Assembly: GCF_004362805.1 (NCBI RefSeq)
Contig: NZ_SNYF01000006.1
Coordinates: forward strand, 558,001-622,000
Direction of reading: 5' to 3'
Source: Algoriphagus boseongensis
GTDB lineage: Bacteria; Bacteroidota; Bacteroidia; Cytophagales; Cyclobacteriaceae
Length of the DNA: 64,000 nucleotides
Positions 31,438 to 53,500 of the stretch are shown in pieces; within the stretch, counting starts at the first letter, position 1, and the number at the start of each line of letters is the position of its first letter. The notes beneath the pieces are model-generated. The model saw nothing but the letters and a program-made list of their open reading frames with translations, was not told where the DNA came from and made no database searches. The position numbers and the translations under genes were made by a program.

Positions 31438-31454
31438 GGCTTTTAAAATTAATT

Positions 31455-31479
31455 CCCTATCGGGAATATAGGTTTATAG
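31455..31479 (-). promoter_or_regulatory. Candidate Rrf2 operator before the sulfite reductase operon
   Basis: Minus strand TATAAACCTATA, five bases, then ATAGGGAAT; the core CCTAT-N7-ATAGG spans 31456-31472, 19-35 bases before the reductase ATG. The same 17-base geometry and flanking TATAAA occur in the palindrome at 35171-35201 next to the Rrf2 gene. Confidence 0.55.
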
Positions 31480-31490
31480 ATTGTTAGAAA

Positions 31491-31519
31491 AGCCAAGGGT
31501 TTGGTCTTGGCTGTTTTTT
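31491..31519. terminator. Terminator-like hairpin between cysN and the reductase gene
   Basis: AGCCAAG / CTTGGCT with an eight-base loop. T run on the plus side, TTTTCT on the minus side. In the direction of the operon it would end the cysN transcript just before the second operator. Confidence 0.55.
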
Positions 31520-31520
31520 A

Positions 31521-31650
31521 GTTCGTTATTCGATGTTCAAGATTCGATATTGGAAATTTCGAATGCCGAACTCCGAATGATGATCTTCCTGCTGAAGTCA
31601 GGCATTGAAGTCTATGGTCTTGATGCTTGATACTAAAATCTTGCTACTCA
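31521..31650 (-). repeat. Intercistronic micro-repeat B (cysN to reductase)
   Basis: Starts in the cysN stop codon: minus strand GAGTAGCAAGATTTTAGTAT, matching micro-repeat A (plus-strand TTGATACTAAAATCTTG at 31627-31643). Then a second family of TCGA words: TTCGGAGTTCGGCATTCG and AATATCGAATCTTGAACATC, i.e. variants of ATATCGAA/CATTCGA, as also seen at about 34125-34150. Confidence 0.6.
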
Positions 31651-32912: not shown

Positions 32913-33094
32913 TTTCTACTTTAGGTCATTTTTAAATTTTAAGATATGCTTCGCGAGATAGTGAAAGATATTTTGCCTTCGGCAAAAAGATAGACTGAGC
33001 TATATCTTGCCGATTTATCGGCAAATTTTTTTTATCTGCGCAGCTATCTTTCATTTTCCTGTCTTACTACTTGATACCAGCTATTTGCTACTTA
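32913..33094 (-). repeat. Intercistronic micro-repeat C with small hairpins (cysD to cysN)
   Basis: Starts in the cysD stop: minus strand TTTAAGTAGCAAATAGCTGG, related to micro-repeat A (CAGCTATTTGCTACTTA at 33078-33094 against CTAGCTATTTGATACTTA). It goes on with copies of AAGATA/TATCTT and two small hairpins: TTTGCC-TTC-GGCAAA near 32973-32987 and TTGCCGAT-TT-ATCGGCAA near 33008-33025. No gene is seen. Confidence 0.6.
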
Positions 33095-33991
33095 AAAGTA
33101 TCCCACCTTTTTCCTCGTCTCCATCGCTGCCTCTGATCTTTTGTCGTCGATGCGGGCTCCACGCTCTGAAAGGGTAGATTCTCGGATTTCTGCGACTACA
33201 TCGTCCAAAGTTTTCGCCTCTGAAAGTACCGCTGCCGTACAAGTCATGTCGCCAACGGTACGGAAACGAACCCATTTCTCGCTGACTTCCTCGTGGACCT
33301 CGCGATATACATGCTCATTAGCCGTCCAGATTAATCCATCCCGAAAGAAAACCTCCCGCTTGTGCGCAAAGTAGATGCTTGGGATGGCAATATTTTCTGT
33401 TCGAATGTATTCCCATACATCCAATTCGGTCCAGTTGGAAATTGGAAACACGCGAACGTTTTGGCCTACGTGGATTTTGCCGTTGAGCATGTCAAAAAGC
33501 TCAGGGCGCTGATTTTTTTCATCCCATTGTCCAAAATCATCACGGACGGAAAACACCCGCTCTTTAGCACGGGCTTTTTCTTCATCTCTTCTTGCCCCAC
33601 CGATACATGCATCAAATTTAAATTCTTCGATTGCGTCCAACAGCGTGGTGGTTTGAAGCGTGTTTCGGCTTGCATAGCGACCTTTTTCCTCACGAACTTT
33701 TCCCTGATCGATGGAGTCTTGTACATTTCGTACGATCAGTTCCAGTCCCAATTCCTTGACCAATTGATCTCTAAATTCAATAGTCTCCGGAAAATTATGA
33801 CCGGTATCCACGTGAAGTAGAGGAAAAGGGATTTTGGCAGGGAAAAAGGCCTTCTGGGCCAACCTCACTAAAGTGATCGAGTCTTTTCCCCCGGAAAAAA
33901 GCAGAACCGGACGCTCAAACTGCGCCGCCACTTCCCGAAGGATGTGGATCGATTCTGCTTCTTTAGGGTTAGGTATAAATAGGTTTGACAT
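33092..33991 (-). CDS. cysD: Sulfate adenylyltransferase subunit 2
   Basis: 299 residues. N-type ATP-pyrophosphatase fold: LLFSGGKDSITLVRLAQKAF (PP-loop SGGKDS, about residue 34), HVDTGHNFPETIEFRD, CIGGARRDEEKARAKERVFS, and FPISNWTELDVWEYI. It binds ATP and sulfate and works as a heterodimer with CysN. The family 4 repeat word (TCGTAAA) ends just before its ATG. Confidence 0.96.
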   Translation of the reverse strand: MSNLFIPNPKEAESIHILREVAAQFERPVLLFSGGKDSITLVRLAQKAFFPAKIPFPLLHVDTGHNFPETIEFRDQLVKELGLELIVRNVQDSIDQGKVREEKGRYASRNTLQTTTLLDAIEEFKFDACIGGARRDEEKARAKERVFSVRDDFGQWDEKNQRPELFDMLNGKIHVGQNVRVFPISNWTELDVWEYIRTENIAIPSIYFAHKREVFFRDGLIWTANEHVYREVHEEVSEKWVRFRTVGDMTCTAAVLSEAKTLDDVVAEIRESTLSERGARIDDKRSEAAMETRKKVGYF

Positions 33992-34187
33992 AGTATTTAC
34001 GAGTTACGAAGTACGATTTACGAGCTGGCTTGAAGCATCTAAACCTTGTTTTCAAATGGTTACTTATTTTGATTGTAAGAAGGGTGCTACATCAATTTTG
34101 CAATCATTCAATCTTCCAATTTTTCTATATCGAATGTCCAACATCAAATACTGAATGCTAAAGTTTACTGCTCACTGCCTACTGCTA
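33992..34187 (-). repeat. Composite intercistronic micro-repeat D (cysH to cysD)
   Basis: In the direction of transcription: AGTAGGCAGTGAGCAGT (34167-34183) starting two bases after the cysH TAG; TCGATAT-type words; AAATTGGAAGATTGAA... (34093-34122); GGTTTAGATGCTTC (34032-34045), five bases, AGCTCGTAAATCGTA (34012-34026); then 20 bases to the cysD ATG. The same words in the same order fill the mazG-ridA gap on the other strand (52945-53119), the last two exact and with the same five-base spacing. Confidence 0.85.
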
Positions 34188-34889
34188 TCTGGTATGCAGC
34201 CCACACTCCTTCTTCGAATCTTCCCACCACCATCTTCCAGCTCTTGCGTCTTCCCCAGGTAAAATTGCCCTGGTGCAAGGAGCACAGCCTATGCTGACAA
34301 ATCCCTGATCGTGAAGTGGATTGTAGGGGATTTTATGCTCATCTATGTAGGCAATCATCTCGTCGAATGTCCAATCCAAGAGAGGATTATATTTGAGAAT
34401 TTGGTTTCCTTCATCCCACTCGATTTTTTTCATTTCGCTGCGGTTGGCACTTTGCTCGGCACGGAGTCCGGTGACCCAGATTTCATTGCCTGCTAAAGCT
34501 CTTTTCAGGGGCTCCACCTTGCGGACATAGCAGCAAGACTTGCGATTTTCCACTGAATCATAGAATCCGTTGATTCCATTTTTTGCAACCCAATTTTCCA
34601 CAGAATCCCGCTCAGGATAATAAACTTGGATGCGGGTTTTATACTTGCTCTCAGTCCTTGCCAATAAGTCTAGGGTCTCCGGGAAAAGTCTGCCTGTATC
34701 CAAAGAAAAGATCTTAATCGGTAGATTTTGGGTGGCGATCAACTGCGTGATCACCTGATCCTCCTGACCTAGAGAGGTGGAGAACACAATTTTCCCTGGA
34801 AACAATTCAGCCAATAGGGCCAAACCTTCCGCTGGACTCAGGTGGTTAACCTGATTTTCAAGATCTGACCAATTCGGCTTCTTGCTCAT
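34185..34889 (-). CDS. cysH: Adenylyl-sulfate (APS) reductase, thioredoxin-dependent
   Basis: 234 residues from ATG 34889 (MSKKPNW); an upstream ATG at 34931 gives 14 extra residues. PP-loop-like IVFSTSLGQEDQVI (about 35-48), SLDTGRLFPETLDLL, SVENRKSCCYVRKVEPL, SIGCAPCTRAILPGED and KKECGLH. The CC...CxxC pairs mark the 4Fe-4S APS-reducing subtype, not the PAPS-only one; the final C in ECGLH is the thiosulfonate cysteine. It reduces APS to sulfite. Its start overlaps the DUF2061 gene end by about 32 bases. The first repeat word of the next gap starts right after the TAG. Confidence 0.93.
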   Translation of the reverse strand: MSKKPNWSDLENQVNHLSPAEGLALLAELFPGKIVFSTSLGQEDQVITQLIATQNLPIKIFSLDTGRLFPETLDLLARTESKYKTRIQVYYPERDSVENWVAKNGINGFYDSVENRKSCCYVRKVEPLKRALAGNEIWVTGLRAEQSANRSEMKKIEWDEGNQILKYNPLLDWTFDEMIAYIDEHKIPYNPLHDQGFVSIGCAPCTRAILPGEDARAGRWWWEDSKKECGLHTR

Positions 34890-35148
34890 GTTTTTTGGTA
34901 GTTCTGGTTGCATTTTCCCATACCCGCTCATGGAGGTAATACAGGAATATTTTGGTCACGACTTCTACAGATCCAATGGAAATCGCCATCACCAATTGAC
35001 CGGTCACGAAATAGGAAATAACCATGGTGTCAATCGTGCCGACAATTCTCCAGGAAATGGATTTGATCAGGCTTTTGAAGTTGGTGTCTTGTCCCTTTTT
35101 GGAGACAAAGAATTTTTTGAGAGGCAGGTCTAAGATCATATCGTACAA
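34858..35148 (-). CDS. DUF2061 membrane protein
   Basis: 96 residues with two membrane segments (ISWRIVGTIDTMVISYFVTG and LVMAISIGSVEVVTKIFLYYLHER). SWRxxGTxDTxxISxxxTG is the DUF2061 signature. Function unknown; the gene is commonly the neighbour of cysH in Bacteroidota and may help sulfate uptake or thiol metabolism (inference). Start: ATG at 35148 or, more likely in view of the promoter only 15 bases upstream, Met4 at 35139. Overlaps the cysH gene, suggesting coupled translation. Confidence 0.82.
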   Translation of the reverse strand: MYDMILDLPLKKFFVSKKGQDTNFKSLIKSISWRIVGTIDTMVISYFVTGQLVMAISIGSVEVVTKIFLYYLHERVWENATRTTKKHEQEAELVRS

Positions 35149-37684: not shown

Positions 37685-37860
37685 AGAAAAGTGACAAGAT
37701 GGCATTTGAAGATTGCCACAAAGGCACGAAGACAGGAAGGAAAGCCTGAAGAAGATTAATTGACTTCGATCAGCGACAAAAATCAAAAAGCTGAAAAATG
37801 GATAAAGGATCACAGATATCACAGATCAAAATCATCTGTGGAAATCTGTGTCATCTGTGA
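37685..37860. repeat. Intergenic ATCTGTG words and degenerate repeat
   Basis: Two CACAGAT (37811-37817, 37820-37826) and three ATCTGTG copies (37834-37840, 37844-37850, 37853-37859), the inner pair forming a hairpin with a seven-base loop. Nearby is TTGCCACAAAGGCACGAAGA (37715-37734). Both look like dispersed intergenic words. No gene is seen here. Confidence 0.6.
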
Positions 37861-48317: not shown

Positions 48318-48440
48318 GTAATTTTAAAATTGAAAAATTTTAAGATTTGAAAATTTAATAAGTGATAAGGATTCGTTGTGGATAAGGCCTTTTTGCTAAA
48401 AAGAGCCTCGTAAATCGTAATTCGTACATCGTAAATCAAG
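48318..48440 (+). repeat. Composite intercistronic micro-repeat F (pdxJ to hydrolase)
   Basis: Begins a few bases after the pdxJ stop with AT words (TTTTAAAATTGAAAAATTTT and AAGATTTGAAAATTTAA; 48321-48360), then a TTTTTGCTAAAAAG hairpin-like word, then CTCGTAAATCGTA (48407-48419) repeated as ATTCGTACATCGTAAATC. The 13-base word ends 21 bases before the ATG, as at 53119 and 33992. Confidence 0.8.
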
Positions 48441-52150: not shown

Positions 52151-52951
52151 ATGTCTAATTTGAGTACCCGTGCCGAGCAATTGGCTGCCTTCGATCGACT
52201 GTTGACCATTATGGATGAACTCAGGGCTCAGTGCCCCTGGGATAAAAAGCAAACCACAGAGAGCCTCAGGCATTTAACGATTGAAGAGACCTTTGAGCTT
52301 TCAGATGCGATTTTGGAAGGAAATCCAGAGGAAATCAAAAAAGAGTTGGGAGATATTCTTTTGCATATTGTTTTCTATGCAAAAATCGGATCCGAGGAAG
52401 GAAACTTCGATATAACTACCCTTACCAATGCGCTTTGTGAAAAACTGATTCGTCGCCATCCGCATATTTATGGTGACGTGCAGGCCAATGATGCAGACAC
52501 AGTAAGCCAAAATTGGGAGAAAATTAAATTGAAGGAAAAAGGAAATGTTTCCGTTTTGGGAGGAGTTCCGAAGTCTTTGCCAGCCTTGATCAAAGCGATG
52601 CGAATTCAGGAAAAAGCTCGAGGGGTTGGTTTCGATTGGGAAGAGAAACATCAGGTTTGGGAAAAAGTGGAGGAGGAAATGCAAGAATTCAAGGAAGAAT
52701 TCAATGCAGCCGATGAGAAAGAAATTGATAAAGAAAAAGCCACGGCTGAGTTTGGAGATTTGCTTTTTTCCCTGATCAACTATGCGAGATTCATTTATAT
52801 CAATCCTGAGGAGGCGCTGGAGAGAACGAATTTGAAATTTATCAAGCGCTTTCAATACCTGGAAAACGCCGCCAAAACTGCCGGGAAAAATCTCAGTGAG
52901 ATGACCCTGGCAGAAATGGATGTGTATTGGAATGAAGCGAAGAAGCAGTAG
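52151..52951 (+). CDS. mazG: Nucleoside triphosphate pyrophosphohydrolase MazG
   Basis: 266 residues, two MazG domains. First: LLTIMDELRAQCPWDKKQTTESLRHLTIEETFELSDAI with ExxE, then KKELGDILLHIVFYAKI; second: EKVEEEMQEFKEEF...EFGDLLFSLINYARF. It removes non-canonical or excess NTPs. Its TAG stop lies inside the word GCAGTAGGCAG, the first unit of the repeat that fills the following gap. Confidence 0.95.
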   Translation: MSNLSTRAEQLAAFDRLLTIMDELRAQCPWDKKQTTESLRHLTIEETFELSDAILEGNPEEIKKELGDILLHIVFYAKIGSEEGNFDITTLTNALCEKLIRRHPHIYGDVQANDADTVSQNWEKIKLKEKGNVSVLGGVPKSLPALIKAMRIQEKARGVGFDWEEKHQVWEKVEEEMQEFKEEFNAADEKEIDKEKATAEFGDLLFSLINYARFIYINPEEALERTNLKFIKRFQYLENAAKTAGKNLSEMTLAEMDVYWNEAKKQ

Positions 52952-53119
52952 GCAGATTTTAGTAGGCAGTAAGCAGTGGGCAGATAGCAATCGGCGCCTT
53001 TTATTCGAAATTGCAAGATTGAAAAATTGTAAAATTCATTATACTAATAACCTTTTAAGAAAGTAGGTTTAGATGCTTCTAATTAGCTCGTAAATCGTAA
53101 TTCCCAAATCGTAACTTCT
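52945..53119 (+). repeat. Composite intercistronic micro-repeat E (mazG to ridA)
   Basis: GCAGTAGGCAG (52945-52955) contains the mazG stop; AGTAGGCAGTAAGCAGT at 52961-52977; AAATTGCAAGATTGAA... (53008-53037); GGTTTAGATGCTTC (53066-53079), five bases, AGCTCGTAAATCGTA (53085-53099); 20 bases to the ridA ATG. This repeats, in the same order, the words between cysH and cysD on the other strand. Confidence 0.85.
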
Positions 53120-53500
53120 ATGTCAAATAAAATCATTTTCACTACCGAAGCGCCTGCGCCGATTGGCCCATATTCCCAAGCGGTTTTAGCAGGAAATACA
53201 CTTTATGTTTCTGGCCAAATTGCCCTAGATCCGGATTCTGGTGAATTGATTAATGAAAATATCACCGAGGAAACTCATGCTGTCATGAAAAATATGGAAG
53301 CCATTCTCCGGGCAGCTGGGTATGGATTCTCGGATATTGTCAAATGCACCATTTTTATCCGGGACATGGGGCAATTCGGGACTATCAACGAAGCCTATGG
53401 ACAATATTTTAAATCAAACCCTCCGGCAAGAGAAACAGTTGAAGTAAGCAAGCTTCCCAAAAACGTGAATGTTGAAATTTCCTGTATTGCAGTAAAATAA
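53120..53500 (+). CDS. RidA-family enamine/imine deaminase
   Basis: 126 residues. APAPIGPYSQAVLAGNTLYVSGQIALDP, MKNMEAILRAAGYGFSDIVKCTIFI, and PPARETVEVSKLPKNVNVEISCIAVK are the RidA/YjgF signatures, including the arginine of the active site. It hydrolyses reactive enamines formed by PLP enzymes. The next gene starts four bases later with TTG. Confidence 0.95.
   Translation: MSNKIIFTTEAPAPIGPYSQAVLAGNTLYVSGQIALDPDSGELINENITEETHAVMKNMEAILRAAGYGFSDIVKCTIFIRDMGQFGTINEAYGQYFKSNPPARETVEVSKLPKNVNVEISCIAVK

Follow-up and report, generated by a model that had tools for sequence, protein, structure and literature searches.

Ordered arrays of heptanucleotide units between cysH and cysD and at other gene edges in Algoriphagus boseongensis

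The stretch of DNA considered here, hereafter the window, comprises 64,000 nucleotides of Algoriphagus boseongensis contig NZ_SNYF01000006.1 (positions 558,001 to 622,000), in which genes were named from their Pfam domains: PAPS reductase (cysH and cysD), MazG, Ribonuc_L-PSP (ridA) and PdxJ. On the minus strand cysH (34185..34931) is followed by cysD (33092..33991), and the gap between them holds, in order, a CAGTNNG heptad array read from the sequence directly 3' of the cysH stop (34164..34184), a degenerate TTCNNNA-type heptad array (34125..34162) whose place is taken in relatives by clearer TTCGATA-type arrays, an octad array of the AAATTGAA type (34093..34124), the composite GGTTTAGATGCTTC-N5-AGCTCGTAAATCGTA located by pattern search (34012..34045), and a TCGTANN heptad array reaching the cysD start (33992..34024), within which Tandem Repeats Finder reports a period-7 TCGTAAA tract at 33997-34024. 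The TAG stop codon of cysH is itself in register with the first heptad, CAGATAG being followed by CAGTAGG. On the plus strand the last codons of mazG (52151..52951; ..AAGCAGTAG) lie within an AGTAGGC heptad array that crosses the stop (52944..52989; Tandem Repeats Finder gives period 7 at 52961-52983 and period 14 at 52944-52989), and the way to ridA (53120..53500) continues through a AAATTGAA-type octad array (53008..53036), a second copy of the composite (53066..53099) and a TCGTANN heptad array (53088..53114), the two arrays being reported by the same program with periods of 8 and 7. A third gap of like build, 48318-48440, leads from pdxJ to an alpha/beta hydrolase gene and has AAATTG-type and TCGTAAA-type parts with the middle word missing: an octad array of the AAATTGAA type (48320..48361, plus strand; period-8 tract at 48320-48356) and a TCGTANN array (48408..48437, plus strand; period-7 TCGTAAA tract over the whole extent), which ends 3 nt before the hydrolase ATG and is kept in A. 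mannitolivorans. A TTCNNNA-type period-7 tract also occupies 31522..31577 (minus strand) of the window gap 31438-31643. The words of the composite gaps are thus pieces of degenerate arrays with units of 7 nt, in some cases 8 nt, of the classes CAGTNNG, TTCNNNA, AAATTGAA and TCGTANN.

The first-pass annotation of the window had claimed that two unrelated gene junctions share these words in a fixed order beyond chance, and the comparison bears this out. The composite is exact at 34012-34045 (minus strand) and 53066-53099 (plus strand), with an identical N5 spacer and with 20 nt from its 3' end to the ATG in both gaps (cysD ATG 33991; ridA ATG 53120), and 100 dinucleotide shuffles yielded 0 matches. 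A hand recount returned the same agreement for the accompanying words, 25 of 30 for the AAATTG word and 16 of 17 for the AGTAGGCAGT word, and an alignment of 67 columns puts the identity of the two copies at 81%. The AGTAGGCAGT word, said to stand directly after the stop, does so in the cysH-cysD gap, but in the mazG-ridA gap it begins 9 nt past the stop. The exact composite is found at two places in the 4.18-Mb genome, upstream of cysD and of ridA, and a genome-wide search allowing up to 3 mismatches gave no third copy. Two occurrences had been named in advance as an outcome that would refute the claim; this is what the exact composite gives, while its parts belong to arrays found throughout the genome. 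Among 72 Algoriphagus genomes the composite is present in 7, at 8 places, of which 7 are the cysH-cysD gap and the eighth is the mazG-ridA gap of A. boseongensis. All 8 places are intercistronic, and the tie to gene junctions stands; the idea of a recurring mobile or gene-junction element finds no support, the composite being a feature of one junction plus one extra copy. The N5 spacer (34027-34031; 53080-53084) could form the loop of a tiny GCTT-N5-AAGC stem, which is fuller in loci L190 and L191 than in A. boseongensis.

The history of the cysH-cysD junction can be followed across species, as cysD adjoins cysH in 69 of 80 named CysH loci. Seven outgroup species (Pararhodonellum, Anditalea, three Echinicola, Rhodonellum and Litoribacter; L210, L246-L250, L253) have a gap of 6-9 nt. 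In Algoriphagus, Belliella, Mongoliibacter and relatives it spans 46 to 524 nt, the longest being in Belliella; three Belliella/Cyclobacteriaceae gaps of 36-55 nt contained no clear array. The shared order runs from the stop codon through a GACNNAA or CAGTNNG array, a TTCNNNA array, a AAATTGAA array, the core, a GAANNNN array and a TCGTANN array to the ATG, and is complete in few species. Over 70 rows including A. boseongensis, the parts were counted as GA-type 53 (a loose pattern), TCGTA 36, TTC 23, GAA 16, CAGT 12, AAATTG 9 and the GATGCTT core 5, in a search that misses degenerate copies. The distance from the last TCGTANN unit to the cysD ATG is 2 mod 7 in 25 of 36 gaps and 3 mod 7 in 9 of 36. 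At the opposite edge, CAGTNNG arrays accompany a TAG stop of cysH in 7 of 8 cases, against 1 of 52 among the other gaps of at least 40 nt. In L225 and L227 cysH extends a few codons (..LHSSRQ, ..LHSSKQ) into the CAGT array, which supplies the stop codon. Some mosaics contain further material: an insert of the CACTGCGAGG..CTCGCAATGACG type, in some only in part (L187, L193, L196, L197, L198, L205, L208), or the word GTCAGTCTGAGCGAAGTCGAAGAC or a near variant of it (L215, L221, L224, L226, L228, L231, L262).

Among the length differences at this junction, steps of one or two whole 7-nt units are prominent. In 49 near species pairs, which are not independent of one another, 7-nt indels numbered 24 and 14-nt indels 14, compared with 10, 8, 1 and 2 for lengths of 6, 8, 13 and 15 nt, and the closest species differs from A. 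boseongensis by one 7-nt step in the CAGTNNG array. Between A. boseongensis and A. mannitolivorans arrays are present in only 5 of 40 alignable gaps, and these gaps show no clear excess of 7-nt indels (2 of 7 nt among about 20). Within 60 orthologous gaps of the two species some align well and some hold a replaced vocabulary, as at 92960-93203 and 94650-94778 (numbered on A. boseongensis contig 2 from 558001), where GAAATA / TATTTC elements stand opposite TTACGA or GGAAGTC arrays of A. mannitolivorans. At the stop codon at 84186 different heptads follow in the two species, in the same register.

Arrays of this kind extend well beyond the window. With up to 1 mismatch, TCGTANNTCGTANNTCGTA matches the genome 40 times and the reversed pattern once. 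A census of the window and 20 regularly spaced stretches, together 464 kb with 253 gaps at least 20 nt long, returned 10 period-7, 9 period-8, 1 period-13 and 3 period-14 tracts and none of any other period from 4 to 15, while shuffled gaps gave 0 to 0.4 tracts of the same periods. When all gaps are pooled, lag 7 shows only a small excess and is not the only lag that is raised, and in genome G153, which bears arrays yet is poor in them, there is practically no pooled excess; the arrays are confined to a minority of gaps. As for single words, four tandem TCGTA units occur in 28 of 148 genomes of the family (4 for the reversed control) and in 32 of 296 of the phylum (17 for the reversed control), so that one word taken alone is only mildly enriched phylum-wide. 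Small samples from another five genomes, of which four belong to families other than Cyclobacteriaceae, gave period-7 segments at 2 of 70 stop sides in G198 (both near the stop, at -6 and +9) and 2 of 35 in G394 (one beginning 16 nt inside the gene and spanning the stop), and at 0 of 67, 0 of 45 and 0 of 41 in G165, G385 and G122.

What recurs genome-wide, and was absent from the first-pass annotation, is the degenerate array of 7- or 8-nt units, with arrays beginning at stop and ending near start codons. With the window and stretches picked for matches left out, and with A. mannitolivorans orthologues of the window gaps included, 28 of 986 gene 3' ends in five genomes carried a period-7 segment, whereas periods 5, 6, 8, 9, 10 and 11 gave 0, 3, 4, 3, 2 and 2; 22 of the 28 begin within -12..+9 of the stop codon and 7 span it. 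On the start sides there were 13 such segments, 9 of which lie no more than 20 nt from the ATG. Outside the window the gene ends are our own calls, start codons being especially prone to error. A fuller set of 1345 gene ends from five genomes, in which the A. boseongensis sample is partly picked, has 39 period-7 stop segments against 2, 3, 6, 4, 2 and 3 for the same other periods. Thirty of the 39 begin at -12 to +9 of the stop, 7 further on and 2 within the gene, and 8 cross the stop codon; at starts, period 7 accounts for 23 of 1308 against 0 to 5 for other periods, and 19 of the 23 end no more than 20 nt from the ATG or past it. For arrays detected from post-stop bases alone, the register continues through the stop codon, with 1.29 of 3 matches at lag 7, 1.26 at lag 14 and 0.65-1.10 at other lags. 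The phase TGA|TTTACGA is found in 7 of 14 TTACGA arrays of the A. boseongensis sample, and genes bearing arrays end in TGA, TAA and TAG 13, 10 and 8 times, compared with 355, 816 and 174 overall. A service as stop devices in three frames was considered and set aside: CAGTNNG arrays hold stops in 1.25 frames (shuffled 1.19 +- 0.27) and GACNNAA arrays in 1.37 (shuffled 1.10 +- 0.13, about two standard deviations lower), and stops in all three frames are found at rates of 0.12 against 0.06 and 0.07 against 0.06, which leaves such a purpose unsupported.

The orientation of the words differs between the two ends of a gap. In 50 loci, some picked for matches, the ratio TTACGA:TCGTAA in tandem gaps is 40:8 in the stop-side half and 3:35 in the start-side half; divergent gaps give 5:1 on the left and 1:4 on the right, and convergent gaps 1:0 and 2:3. 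Loci outside the window and the picked stretches give 13:3 and 1:4 for tandem, 1:1 and 1:3 for divergent, and 1:0 and 2:2 for convergent gaps, so that the reversal is firm for tandem gaps only. Pairing of the two ends of one gap at a score of at least 26 was seen in few cases, 4 of 209 A. boseongensis gaps against 0.0008 of pairs from different gaps; three other genomes gave 0 of 45, 0 of 56 and 1 of 65. At L060 2086-2556 a 117-aa reading frame lies between inverted TTTACGA and TCGTAAC arrays that have similar inner sequence. The reversal could suggest that the arrays are putative binding sites, arranged in pairs, for a regulator or a protein that shapes the chromosome, by analogy with Geobacter metallireducens, for which such a role has been proposed and where, in the part of that report compared, tandem 7-8 nt units likewise lie on opposite strands at variable distance (Aklujkar, 2009; PMC2700814). 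Many unrelated vocabularies are present per genome, however, they are exchanged between species, and word classes are mixed at the two ends of one gap, all of which make this proposal quite improbable. The reversed words, together with shared cores such as TTGAAGTnC ahead of the TCGTANN array and the Y1 transposases of the genome (3 strong matches and 1 weak), might also recall the inverted ends of a miniature element of REP or MITE type moved by a transposase. This would be more doubtful still and is considered very unlikely, as the four Y1 genes are flanked by other palindromes and not by heptad arrays, the three A. boseongensis gaps folded form no stable palindrome, the composite is not dispersed but present in two copies only, and inspection of the 60 orthologous gaps by eye revealed neither a target-site duplication nor a clean empty site.

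Several features could be read as signs of selection on the transcript, the arrays being cis-acting leader or trailer parts of an RNA that act in translation start, mRNA processing or stability, with the heptad as a putative contact site. In 36 of the 70 gaps TCGTANN arrays retain their position ahead of cysD and stay in phase with its ATG, the order of parts is common across the genus, and A-type arrays prefer tandem gaps, of which 21 of 342 have one, over convergent (1 of 73) and divergent (2 of 108) gaps, the counts being 6 of 177, 1 of 42 and 0 of 63 with picked stretches removed; a translational part has also been suggested for the pre-start TAACTGA repeats in the sections of MacGregor (2015; PMC4679880) compared here. 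Nevertheless, words change wholesale between close species at one junction, orthologous operons function with gaps of 6-9 nt, and the composite gaps have no excess of RNA folding over shuffles (z +0.22 and +1.97), so that this explanation seems unlikely. The third A. boseongensis gap folds with z -1.45, eight gaps of other species that have both TTC and GAA arrays have a median z of -1.4, and z falls below -3 in 5 of 49 gaps (L196, L198, L201, L214, L223). An RNA hairpin as the common mechanism was rejected on its absence from the A. boseongensis composite gaps, and an Rfam scan of the window at gathering thresholds returned two tRNAs only, with the composite gaps matching no curated family. 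Any role for the cell, such as an A-rich unstructured leader that would belong to the second gene alone, is a guess.

One plausible explanation, held to be probable if by no means assured, is that the composite represents the right-hand half of a cysH-cysD spacer in a subgroup of Algoriphagus, and that arrays lengthen by 7 nt at a time at gene edges and are occasionally copied from one junction to another. The mosaic, its order in many species, the anchoring at gene edges and the 7- and 14-nt length steps are observed directly. The spacer would have grown in a junction that is only a few bases long in outgroups, to become a mosaic of arrays with 7- or 8-nt units from the stop codon to near the start codon; slippage in whole units would lengthen and shorten the arrays, which would stay at gene edges because steps of 7 nt are not tolerated in coding sequence, and the middle of the gap would hold older, decaying material. 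The sister species A. mannitolivorans has the composite at cysH-cysD only, and its mazG-ridA gap, like those of other relatives examined, contains different words, so that the composite most likely reached mazG-ridA later, as an ectopic copy. In the A. boseongensis lineage the segment that runs from the octad array almost to the start codon would have been copied into mazG-ridA by gene conversion or template switching, donor and mechanism both being inferred. Template switching at quasipalindromes reportedly creates hairpins in E. coli. A single copying event from cysH-cysD to mazG-ridA would be the simplest history, and the fixed word order would follow from common descent of the spacer plus this one event, although the relatives may instead have lost a mazG-ridA composite independently. 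Slippage alone leaves unexplained both the reversal of words between gap ends and the confinement of variable bases in TCGTANN mostly to two positions. It is conceivable, but rather unlikely, that stop codons seed the arrays, in that some process lengthens DNA by 7 nt at a time where coding sequence begins or ends, for example at the point of translation termination, beyond which the transcript is free; the word of an array would then derive from the sequence context of the stop codon of the gene that bears it. The association of TAG with CAGTNNG, the register through the stop and the stop usage of array-bearing genes are supporting hints for such seeding, and a further one is the single TGA stop that is followed in two species by two different arrays in a single register.

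Cyanobacterial STRR are heptanucleotide repeats, and prokaryotes have long simple sequence repeats. Among the latter heptanucleotide units dominate and polymerase slippage has been proposed (Mrazek, 2007, as cited in PMC4679880), and as far as the passages compared go they have no tie to gene edges, unlike the arrays described here. Of the two nearest counterparts, the first are the TAACTGA direct repeats of Beggiatoaceae, Cyanobacteria and some Bacteroidetes, which, in the portion of that work compared (MacGregor, 2015; PMC4679880), share a 7-nt unit, an intergenic location often right before the start codon in the sense orientation, 7-nt length steps between strains, and in Flexibacter litoralis one set right after a stop in reverse orientation. 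They are, however, exact repeats of one word, whereas a genome of Algoriphagus contains a large number of degenerate words, its arrays begin at or cross stops, and several of them form an ordered mosaic within one gap. Measured against such repeats and the STRR, the arrays agree in being tandem, intergenic and of 7-nt period, differ in that their units are degenerate and of several classes per gap, and change length by whole units in the cysH-cysD gap, with only weak indications of this in the A. boseongensis and A. mannitolivorans set. The paired octa- and heptanucleotide sites of Geobacter metallireducens, the second of these counterparts, resemble the arrays further in being intergenic and multicopy, but use other words, and the passages compared (PMC2700814) do not give placement relative to stop or start codons. 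REP and BIME palindromes, as described in the relevant part of Di Nocera (2013; PMC3733652), are 20-40 nt long, tagged and linked to RAYT genes; they are similarly intergenic, mosaic and often located between co-directional genes, whereas the heptad arrays are untagged, have no link to Y1 genes and, in the composite gaps, fold no better than shuffles. An open-access literature search found no report of stop-codon anchoring or ordered mosaics for such repeats, and it is these two features that are new, heptanucleotide arrays as such being already known. Such repeats have been noted in several phyla with no agreed origin or role, and the stop and start rule, together with a single junction traced across 69 loci, in which its length ranges from a few bases to more than 500, turns this into a testable question: what process adds 7-nt steps at gene edges, and are operon junctions remodelled by it?

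Other repeats are also present in these genomes. At 37809-37859 of the window there is a palindromic repeat of the CACAGATGA type with units of about 9 nt, similar copies of which are found in loci L052, L055, L059, L111 and L116. The Y1 transposase genes (PF01797; L296, L297, L298, L299) have flanking palindromes of the CCCC..GGGG type, and the repeats at 1612-4064 of L044 resemble the flank of L297.
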